A stretch of 64,000 nt of DNA from Catenulispora sp. EB89. Lineage in GTDB: Bacteria > Actinomycetota > Actinomycetes > Streptomycetales > Catenulisporaceae. The notes under the pieces were generated by a model. It had not been told where the DNA came from and did no database searches. It saw only the letters and a program-made list of their open reading frames with translations. The stretch lies in the NCBI RefSeq assembly GCF_041261445.1, contig NZ_JBGCCU010000001.1, forward strand, positions 124,001 through 188,000. Reading direction: 5' to 3'. A program made the position numbers and the translations under genes. This document shows, in pieces, positions 15,506-55,490 of the stretch (position 1 is the first letter of the stretch; each line of letters starts with the position of its first letter).

Positions 15506-16170
15506 CTAGGCGGGCCAGGCCGTCCACTCGGCGGTGTCGATGGTCACGCCGAACGGCTCCGGCAGGACGATCGGCTCGCCGAATTCCCAGGCGACAGCGG
15601 ACTCGTAGCGGCTGGTTTCCGGATTCGGATCGAAGTAGAGCGTCGCGCGCGCAACGCGTGGATCCCGGTCGACCAGCAGGTAGTACTCGACGCCGGCGGA
15701 GGCGTAGTCGGTCCACTTGGTCATGATCCGGTTCCCGTTCTTCCGCCGGTGCTGAGGGCCGGGCTCGCGGTCGTGATCGGCGTTCGACGGCGACGTAATC
15801 TCGATCGCCATGGCCATGTCCAACGGGCCGATGACCACCGCGTCCGCCGCGCTGGCCTCGTCAGAGCGCGCCCGATCCATCACGGCCACGTCGGGGATCC
15901 AGCCCCTGCTGGATGGCTCGCCGACTTCGGTTCCGATGACTGCCACCCAGGGGAAGGCTGGATCGGTGTCACCGGCCTGCTCGATCACGTGCGCAATGCG
16001 CAAAGCCATCCTGTTGTGCTTGAAGCGAGCGGCAGGTGACACGACGATGTCCCCCTCGATGATCTCGGCGCGGAACCCCTCCGGCAGCCCGAGAAAACGC
16101 TCAAGCTCGCCGCGGACCCACATCTCGTACGGCGAGTCCGGGAGCGGCAACTCCACATAGCCAACGCTCA
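15506..16170 (-). CDS. Uma2-family (DUF820) nuclease-like protein; start codon split by a group II intron
   Basis: Uma2 proteins have a PD-(D/E)xK nuclease-like fold of unknown role. Visible core: FRAEIIEGDIVVSPAARFKH, RGWIPDVAVMDRA (catalytic-type Asp), AMAIEITSPSNADHD and YYLLVDRDPRVARATLYF. The genomic ATG at 16279 would add 36 residues, but that stretch is group II intron RNA domains IV-VI. Joining the exons at 18701 and 16170 places A next to TG and creates ATG, giving MSVGYVELPLPDSPYEMWV and 221 residues. Expression of the native form therefore depends on intron splicing. Coordinates are the 3' exon; the first base of the start codon is at 18701. Confidence 0.85.
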
Positions 16171-16246
16171 GTCGGGTAGCCGAAGTGGATTGCTCCACTC
16201 CGGCCCCCTCAGAACCGGACGTGCGGGCTTTCCCCGCATCCGGCTC
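16171..16246 (-). ncRNA. Group II intron domains V and VI
   Basis: Domain V (16212-16246): GAGCCGGA pairs with TCCGGTTC, the upper stem is closed by a GAAA loop, and the catalytic AGC triad is in place near the 5' end. Domain VI: GCCGGAGTGGA pairs with TCCACTTCGGC around a GCAA loop. A lower GGG/CCC stem leaves TA bulged, putting the branch-point A at 16177, 7 bases from the 3' end as expected. Confidence 0.9.
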
Positions 16247-16275
16247 AAGCGGACCCTGATGGCGGTCCGGGGTTT

Positions 16276-18042
16276 TCATGCTTCCTTGGCCCTTCTGTGG
16301 TCACCGGCATGGTGGTGTCGGTGGCAGTCAGCGTGTACGAGACGAAGGTTGGCTCGTGTGTCGGTCCCGCCGAATTGCCGGTAGACGAAGTGGTGCGTGT
16401 TCAGTGCCTTCGTCGGTGCCGCGAACCAGGCTGCCCACTCATCCGGGCTTTCCGGTTCGAGATCGGCGTCGGGGATCAGCGGCTGTTTGCACAGCGGGCA
16501 GAGCCCCTGTTGGCGCGCGGCGAGGTTGAGTGACGCTCTGGTGATCGTCCTCGGGAGCCTGCCACGTCGGCGGATCGCCCAATAGTCGACCAGCAGCGGG
16601 TCGTCTGGGGAGTTGCTCCCCTTGACCATGATGTGCCTGTCGATACTGGTCCAAGCGAACTTGTAGAGGTAGGTGCCGCTGTCGCGGTCACCGAACACCC
16701 ACTTGTCCATCCTGGTCGAGTTGAACCGGCCGAAGTACCTGGTCATCGTCCAGTTCCTCGGCTTCATCGGGTGGGAATGCTTGGCCCACTTCCAGGTGAG
16801 CGTCCACATGTGGCTGTCCAAGTCGGTGAACGCCTTCTTGGACACCACCGTCCGGTAGTAGGTGGCCCAGCCTTTGATGATCGGGTTGAGCCGCTTGATC
16901 ACGGCTGCCGCGTTGGCTCCCCGCAAGGAGAGCATCTCGGCACGCAACCGTTCCCGGACTCTCCCGATGGCCTTCTTGCTCGGCTTGATCAGCAGCTTCC
17001 CGCTGTAGCGGCGGATGTTGAACCCCAAGAAATCGAAGCCGTCATCGAGGTGGACGATGCTTGTCTTCTCCTCGTTGAAAGCGACTCCTCGGGGCTGCAT
17101 CCACCGGGCGAGTACCTCGCGGATCTGGTGCGCCTGTTCCTCGCTGTGACACAAGACTGCGAAGTCGTCGGCGTACCTGACCAGCATCGGGGCGTCGGCC
17201 GGGGCTTTCCCGTCCTTCCATACCCGATGCCCAGCAGCTGCTTCCATGCCATGTAGCGCGATGTTCAACAGCAACGGGCTGATCACGCCACCTTGCGGAG
17301 TTCCCTCCAGGGTCGGCGCGAACTGGCCGCGATCCATCACCCCGGCCTTGAGCCAGCTTCGGATCGCATCCCTGGCTGGGAACGTCCCGAGGCTGTTCAT
17401 CAGGTAGTCGTGGCTGATGCGGTCGAATGCCGCTGTCAGATCCGCGTCCAGGATCCACGGCCTTCGCGCGGTCTTGTGACCGGCGATGCAGAAGATCTGT
17501 GCGATCGCGTCGTGACAGCCCCGGCCGGGCCGGAAGCCGTAGCTCCTGGACTCGAACCGGGCTTCCCACTCAGGCTCCAGCGCGTTCTTCACGCGGGCCT
17601 GCTCGATCCGGTCCCTGATGACCGGAATCCCTAGCGGGCGCTGTTTCCCGTTGGCCTTCGGGATGTACACGCGCCGAACCGGCTGAGCCTTGCCGGGGCT
17701 GCTCTCCGCTGAGATCTGCGCGGCCACCATCCCCCGCTGCTGCGGGGTGAGGATGACCTCCCGGTCAATGCCGGCCGTCCGGCGGCCTTGGCTCTGCAGT
17801 GTCACCCGCTTGACGCTTACCAGCGTGTTCGCGTGCGAGCGCAGCATGAGCTTCTGCAAGTTGCGGACCCTTTTCAGGTCCCCTTCCCTGGCTGCCGTGA
17901 AGATCCGCTGCCTCAGTTGCCGTACCGCCGCCTCGGTGGTGGCCCAGTCGATGCTGGTCCACTCCGCCGCGTGGTCCTCAGGTCCGTTCGTCGGCGCGGA
18001 GGACCGCGACGCGACTTGCTTCGTTGCCACACCCGCCTCCAA
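16276..18042 (-). CDS. ltrA: Group II intron reverse transcriptase/maturase with HNH endonuclease
   Basis: 588 residues, full length. N-terminal RT-0 region (RQLRQRIFTAAREGDLKRV), RT motifs KANGKQRPLGIPVIRDRI, RSYGFRPGRGCHDAI, DLTAAFDRISH, GTPQGGVISPLLLNIAL and the catalytic LVRYADDFAVL. The maturase domain X (about 400-470: LNPIIKGWATYYR) follows. The C-terminal HNH nuclease has CPLCKQPL and NTHHFVYRQFGGTD...LVHADCHRHHH. All catalytic residues are present, so it can assist splicing and target-primed retrohoming. It is encoded in domain IV of the surrounding intron. The stop overlaps an ATG that falsely extends the Uma2 frame. Confidence 0.95.
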   Translation of the reverse strand: MEAGVATKQVASRSSAPTNGPEDHAAEWTSIDWATTEAAVRQLRQRIFTAAREGDLKRVRNLQKLMLRSHANTLVSVKRVTLQSQGRRTAGIDREVILTPQQRGMVAAQISAESSPGKAQPVRRVYIPKANGKQRPLGIPVIRDRIEQARVKNALEPEWEARFESRSYGFRPGRGCHDAIAQIFCIAGHKTARRPWILDADLTAAFDRISHDYLMNSLGTFPARDAIRSWLKAGVMDRGQFAPTLEGTPQGGVISPLLLNIALHGMEAAAGHRVWKDGKAPADAPMLVRYADDFAVLCHSEEQAHQIREVLARWMQPRGVAFNEEKTSIVHLDDGFDFLGFNIRRYSGKLLIKPSKKAIGRVRERLRAEMLSLRGANAAAVIKRLNPIIKGWATYYRTVVSKKAFTDLDSHMWTLTWKWAKHSHPMKPRNWTMTRYFGRFNSTRMDKWVFGDRDSGTYLYKFAWTSIDRHIMVKGSNSPDDPLLVDYWAIRRRGRLPRTITRASLNLAARQQGLCPLCKQPLIPDADLEPESPDEWAAWFAAPTKALNTHHFVYRQFGGTDTRANLRLVHADCHRHHHAGDHRRAKEA

Positions 18043-18700
18043 CGTCTAACTTGTCCTTCGGTTCTGGCTTCCTTGCTGCTTCACGTCACAGGTCCACCTG
18101 ATCCGCGTGGGCTCCCTTTCGGGCCGGGCATCAGTCCCGTATCCGACGGGTTATTGCTACGCGGCTGAGGCCAGTCGCATAGTTTTCCCCTGGGCTTTCG
18201 CCCCATCGGCATTCGCTTCTCGGATCATCCTGTTCCCGCTGGAGGATTGGGCCTTCGTTACCTCCGGCTTACCGGCCATCGGCCGGACTCCAACGGGGTT
18301 TCCACGTTCCGCTCCGCCAAGATGCGGTCGGGTTGGGCTCCCTCTTAACCCCGGGACCTGCGGTGTCCTGCCCCCGGACGCCCAACTCCGGGAGTCGCAT
18401 GGCGCTCTTCCGCGCCAGGTCCTAGAACCGCCGCCTGCATCGCCATCGACGCGGCCTAGCTGTAACGAGGTGTCATCAAGGGTTCATTCGCATTAGCCCG
18501 TCCGACCTTCCCCTTCACCTGTTGCCGCCCGATGGCGCGGGCCGCTCTTGGGTTTGACCGATTCGGCTTCACACCCCGCCGTTACCAGCGACGCATGCGA
18601 ACCTGGGGACAGATCTTGGACACTGATCCGCGACGATCTATATGGACACTCTGACCTCAAAATAGATCGTCCGCTTGCACGGAGCGACTGCGTGTCGCAC

Positions 18701-18810
18701 TGGGAGACCAACTTTCAGGTGGAACTCGATCTGACTCCATAAGTTCAGCGTAGCCAGTCGGTCACCGCAGGCGAATGTCTTTCAATCACCTGTTCGGCCT
18801 AATGTGATTG
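18701..18810 (-). promoter_or_regulatory. 5' exon and leader of the Uma2-family gene
   Basis: Between the thioredoxin stop and the intron lie 110 bases, ending in GTTGGTCTCCCA. The final A (18701) is the first base of the spliced ATG. No strong ribosome site is visible (GAAAG is 12 bases away). A TTGAAA near the start is a possible -35 box. Confidence 0.5.
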
Positions 18811-55378: not shown

Positions 55379-55490
55379 CACCGCGTGAGGCGACCTGGCT
55401 CACTCCGAAGGGCGGAGCTCACAGTTGCGGGACAGCGCCGGACTCCCACCGGCTTCGCTGCACACGTTGTGGACGGCGCACACCGCCGTC
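55379..55490 (-). promoter_or_regulatory. Cobalamin riboswitch of btuFCD
   Basis: On the minus strand the leader has the B12-box landmarks: GAAGCCGGTGGGAGTCCGGC, then GCTGTCCCGCAACTGTGA, then GAGTGAGCCAGGTCGCC. These are the conserved core of adenosylcobalamin riboswitches. The core lies about 110-220 bases before btuF. The rest of the 394-base gap (55270-55663) holds the switching region and the btuF leader; no gene was seen. Confidence 0.95.

Follow-up and report, generated by a model that had tools for sequence, protein, structure and literature searches.

A group II intron between the A and TG of an ATG codon in Catenulispora sp. EB89, and an actinobacterial intron clade that probably targets start codons

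RESULTS

A complete group II intron precedes an Uma2-family coding sequence

The window analysed here, a 64,000-nucleotide stretch of the Catenulispora sp. EB89 genome, carries a complete group II intron of 2530 nt (16171..18700; all intron and exon features below lie on the minus strand) that begins with GTGCG, ends with CTACCCGAC and separates the A from the TG of an ATG codon upstream of an Uma2-family domain. Taking the explanation as a whole, this is probably an intact, mobile-type, IIB-like intron encoding an RT-maturase-HNH protein, a member of a small lineage in actinobacteria whose homing sites are start codons. The 11.9-Mb genome contains a single copy.

Domains V and VI (16171..16248) were recognized by a full-length match to RF00029 at 16248-16171 (60.1 bits, E 2.6e-9), which terminates exactly at 16171 with GAC and thus with the terminal AY of group II introns; by its position, 7 nt from the 3′ end, an A is the candidate branch point. 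RF02012 matched at 18607-18561. At the 5′ end, GTGCG at 18700 fits GUGYG, and the exon-binding site EBS1 described below abuts the splice site with offset 0. The intron-encoded protein (16276..18030) has 584 aa when read from a GTG preceded by GGAGG and carries RVT_N, RVT_1 (YADD), GIIM and HNH domains in Pfam, with NCBIfam TIGR04416 above its cut-off. The closest solved intron-encoded protein is PDB 6me0 chain C (E 2.9e-117), which we take to be the T. elongatus TeI4h-type protein and which has the same domain plan.

The uninterrupted site was found in five congeneric genomes (L003-L007), in which alignment to the joined exons runs gap-free through the junction, starting in an upstream thioredoxin-like gene and continuing into Uma2. 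This defines both intron ends to the nucleotide. The boundaries proposed in the sequence-only reading, GTGCG at 18700 and the last base at 16171, were thus confirmed by both the covariance model and the empty sites, and a displacement of the ends by one base was ruled out by the empty sites together with the EBS1 offset. The 5′ exon finishes with the A of the split codon (18701..18701) and the 3′ exon consists of its TG and the Uma2-family coding sequence (15506..16170). Joined, they read ATG AGC GTT GGC TAT, and the junction across 18701/16170 expected of spliced RNA is ATGAGCGTTGG. The fixed ends and the PF05685 domain downstream (E 1.9e-17, 63.7 bits vs a cut-off of 27) bear out the earlier claim that exon joining forms A|TG in front of an Uma2 protein. 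The Uma2 ORF is intact and 71–79% identical to its orthologues, and the intron is predicted from its sequence to splice in vivo.

Exon-intron pairing is located by covariation

The same reading had supported the splice site by a pairing of 10 of 11 bases between the end of the 5′ exon and GGGAGCCCAAC (intron 359-369; 18342-18332). This element is near-identical in nearly all relatives, which have unrelated exons, and shows no covariation with them; the pairing is a coincidence. Exon-binding sites were instead located by an unbiased scan of 34 relatives whose 5′ exons are distinct, in which each 6-nt window within their first 640 nt was compared with the 5′ exon at all offsets between 0 and 19. 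Pairing was strongest for intron 317-322 with exon −1 to −6, at 4.9 of 6 positions vs 2.75 for mismatched combinations, a value equalled in 0 of 5000 permutations. A second locus emerged at about intron 237-244, opposite exon −8 to −14, and the GGGAGCCCAAC window showed no excess pairing among the 34 relatives. The two best loci are EBS1 and EBS2, and they confirm the same splice site. In the window, EBS1 is TGGGCG (18379..18384), whose TGGG pairs with the IBS1 core CCCA (18701..18704) immediately adjacent to the splice site. EBS2 is CAGCT (intron about 239-243; 18458..18462), which pairs with IBS2 AGTTG (18709..18713) through one G-U.

Related introns split start codons

The nearest relatives (L029-L036) have RTs 68–75% identical to that of the window intron, and all join their exons as A|TGA or G|TGA. 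Together they form a monophyletic clade (support 100/93, recovered in 100% of bootstrap trees) within which the window RT is the sister of L029. At five of the 6 distinct sites of insertion the sequence reads as a start codon: Streptomyces Uma2, TctB, DUF6243, DUF397 and, as the probable one among them, the window Uma2. Once spliced in silico, the introns of four Streptomyces species (L030, L033-L035) restore an Uma2 gene that belongs to another subfamily and is preceded by GGAG. A stop closes the frame three codons ahead of the junction ATG in L030, L034 and L035 (the TAG was read directly in L030). Because of this in-frame TAG the start codon is certainly split in Streptomyces Uma2, which upholds start-codon splitting as such; uninterrupted Streptomyces Uma2 genes start at the same position with ATG or GTG. 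The TctB gene, another host, has a GTG start overlapping the upstream stop.

Mobility of the lineage is indicated by the five empty sites and by one S. ipomoeae genome, in which three intron copies at three sites are identical over 2528 nt. One of these (L032) lies at a site without an evident start codon. The 5′ flank of this copy (L032:560-619) is apparently within a lytic-polysaccharide-monooxygenase-like gene and the 3′ flank seems unrelated, possibly owing to recombination between intron copies or to a draft-assembly join.

Since other clades insert elsewhere, insertion into start codons by chance is implausible, and a target motif that selects SD-spacer-NTGA is plausible. The Streptomyces members have an EBS2 complementary to the Shine-Dalgarno (SD) sequence (CTCCTAT-ATAGGAG, TAGCTCC-GGAGCTG, TCCCC-GGGGA), with pairings of 7 bp in L030 and L029 and 5 bp in L031 and L036, and the distance from IBS2 to the cut is that of a normal SD-to-start spacing. 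The EBS2 of the window intron pairs with AGTTG and makes no canonical SD pairing; EBS2-SD pairing was accordingly treated as a feature of the Streptomyces members and not as a requirement for clade membership.

When further clade members were sought, one locus came from an additional genus sample and apparently repeats the L033 site, and a class sample added no clade member. The best plasmid matches were about 58–64% identical, and the phage matches were all <60%.

Several related loci show other arrangements. L029 begins with GTGTG instead of GTGCG (L029:3333-3338); exon and intron together then read CTG GTG TGA and create a new in-frame stop for the upstream gene, the TGA of which was split by the insertion. 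In L166/L170 (G095) a start-codon intron in Streptomyces Uma2 carries an insert of about 1.3 kb that interrupts its RT gene. Related introns L071 and L077 apparently lie inside the RT gene of another group II intron (...GFDFLG / ...TPQGG) and are, judging from these flanks, probable twintrons.

An in-frame ATG is conserved 109 nt before the 3′ splice site

All clade members have an ATG exactly 109 nt upstream of the 3′ splice site, and its frame stays open through domains V-VI into the host gene; since the insertion phase never differs, a reading frame that runs through the intron's 3′ end matches that of the host in every case. In the window intron this ATG (16277..16279) opens an N-terminally extended Uma2 ORF of 257 aa (15506..16279), readable from unspliced RNA as MKTPDRHQGPLEPDAGKARTSGSEGAGVEQSTSATRL-SVGY. 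Neither ATG nor GTG was found at −109 in any of 54 distinct non-member introns. Among four divergent members the 30 bases flanking the −109 ATG agree at 3 of 30 columns, and the ATG itself is invariant. Across six close Streptomyces copies, no part of the intron is more conserved than the last 110 nt, which vary at 1 of 110 positions vs a mean of 15, partly because domain V is catalytic. An ATGA overlap is the usual form of translational coupling, and in the window intron and L036 the −109 ATG overlaps the RT stop in this way. We propose that the −109 ATG would serve as a substitute start for unspliced RNA.

It had been claimed that annotation pipelines would place the protein start at 16279, inside intron RNA, and that translation of the native protein requires splicing. 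The ORF from 16279 does exist; since an in-frame ATG is kept at this position throughout the clade, both the view of this start as an artefact and the need for splicing are in doubt.

Alternative readings of the two starts

The junction codon is probably the native start in the window genome, although the earlier statement that the intron splits the Uma2 start codon is now less sure in one respect. Comparison of orthologues showed the junction codon to be only ATG or GTG (ATG in four genomes including that of the window, GTG in two), and it also showed an in-frame ATG 39 nt before it (18738..18740; MESDRVPPESWSP-M...) in six of six genomes. The latter could be a leaderless native start, in which case the intron would split internal codon 14, ATG or GTG, and A|TG would resemble a start codon since the target motif of the intron does. 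We regard this as possible but rather doubtful. It accounts for the conservation in all six genomes of TACGCT-N6-ATG, whose hexamer (18747..18752) is a putative −10 box at the six-base spacing of leaderless actinobacterial genes, and for the absence of stops and indels between the two ATGs, while the two bases before the upstream ATG vary. Codons 2–13 counted from ATG 18740, however, have a GC3 of 3/12 (0.25) vs a gene mean of 0.95, a value as low as in none of the N-terminal controls, of which only 14 were compared, and the codon likelihood of the 12 codons before the junction favours non-coding sequence. The SD-like stretch before the junction (−8.2 to −8.6 kcal/mol) ranks in the top 5% among random 22-mers, start codons occupy 4 of the 5 sister sites, and distant homologues begin about 12 residues before the PDSP-like motif, even if such homologues proved not decisive as arbiters of the start. 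A regulatory leader shared with other genes of the genus was sought as well: within the six genomes the 20-nt ATGGAGTCAGATCGAGTTCC was confined to this locus, bar one match with 3 mismatches. Both starts, the junction codon and the upstream ATG, could be used. Elsewhere, two tandem Uma2-family genes (L109 / G010:C20:10123-11742) have long N-terminal open frames and near-identical N-terminal stretches.

A separate question is what the −109 ATG does. The start-codon location could be real and this ATG functionless, a leftover of the RT 3′ end followed by an ORF extended by chance through a GC-rich ribozyme, and we consider this a serious contender, if short of probable. The 36-codon frame is also open in 13 of the 54 non-member introns, and the ATG could go back to a single ancestor of the clade, which has few independent members, so that shared ancestry explains part of its conservation; starts within domains D5/D6 have proved misleading in Clostridium tetani (PMC3919590). 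Against this reading, the ATG is invariant at its exact distance while the neighbouring bases fall to 30–50% identity, it is missing from 54 of 54 non-members, and it lies in the most conserved 110 nt of the six Streptomyces copies. Uma2 genes are multicopy and often dispensable, and an ordinary mobile intron might simply have killed one such non-essential gene with no consequence for expression. We find this unlikely given an Uma2 ORF that is intact at 71–79% identity to its orthologues and an intron whose catalytic parts and RT are intact as well.

DISCUSSION

We tentatively put forward a model, quite conceivable if short of probable, in which this lineage reads the SD through EBS2 much as 16S rRNA does, cuts the start codon and supplies a substitute start in a fixed frame, so that spliced and unspliced RNA would both yield the host protein. 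Insertion follows the N of NTGA; EBS1 pairs with the bases that immediately precede the cut, and EBS2 of the Streptomyces members with the SD (CTCC to GGAG). Upon host transcription, EBS2 and EBS1 of the folding precursor would cover the SD and spacer, and the SD would presumably stay masked by EBS2 until splicing, aided by the maturase, re-forms SD-ATG. In the window, splicing would restore ATG AGC GTT..., probably the native start and possibly codon 14 of a leaderless ORF from 18740. Unspliced RNA may be re-initiated at the ATGA where the RT ends, giving Uma2 in which a 37-residue intron-encoded N-terminus takes the place of the native first residue(s). The intron would spread by retrohoming to other SD-NTGA sites.

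To our knowledge, no substitute codon is known for the group II intron in groEL of Azotobacter vinelandii. That intron is located at the termination codon (PMC4465626); as here, a codon that serves as a translation signal is split and restored on splicing, but it is a stop and not a start codon. A 2015 review recognizes three target specificities of bacterial introns, namely homing sites, terminators and attC (PMC4424553). Class C introns, which use terminators or attC, resemble the present clade as a lineage with a specialised target, whereas start codons are not among the specificities listed (PMC4424553). TeI4 introns, whose protein is the closest solved one, differ from the clade in using other homing sites, e.g. 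tRNA-Ile, with no start-codon specificity reported there (PMC2882425). In C. tetani C.te.I1, annotated starts of downstream genes lie within D5/D6, as here, and are not the starts of the spliced product (PMC3919590); unlike here, splicing fuses ORFs, and there is neither an intron-encoded protein nor a split start codon. By analogy, this case calls for caution about the proposed substitute start. In the c-di-GMP group I intron of C. difficile, splicing sets the usability of the SD and start codon (PMC3984707), as would be the case here, but that intron is riboswitch-controlled and does not belong to a mobile lineage targeting start codons. Our literature search for start-codon-targeting introns or for an anti-SD EBS2 found no description of either, and an older precedent is possible.

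An intron in a bacterium has to leave the gene that it enters functional, and always landing in one phase of the start codon could achieve this in two ways, through splicing and through a start that the intron itself brings. If this is true, the SD-start region would add to the three target specificities of the 2015 review, insertion phase would appear exploitable for protecting a host gene, and annotated proteins that begin inside such introns may be real.

Elsewhere in the window, a partial match to the cobalamin riboswitch (RF00174, 34.1 bits) was detected at 55394-55453 on the minus strand.
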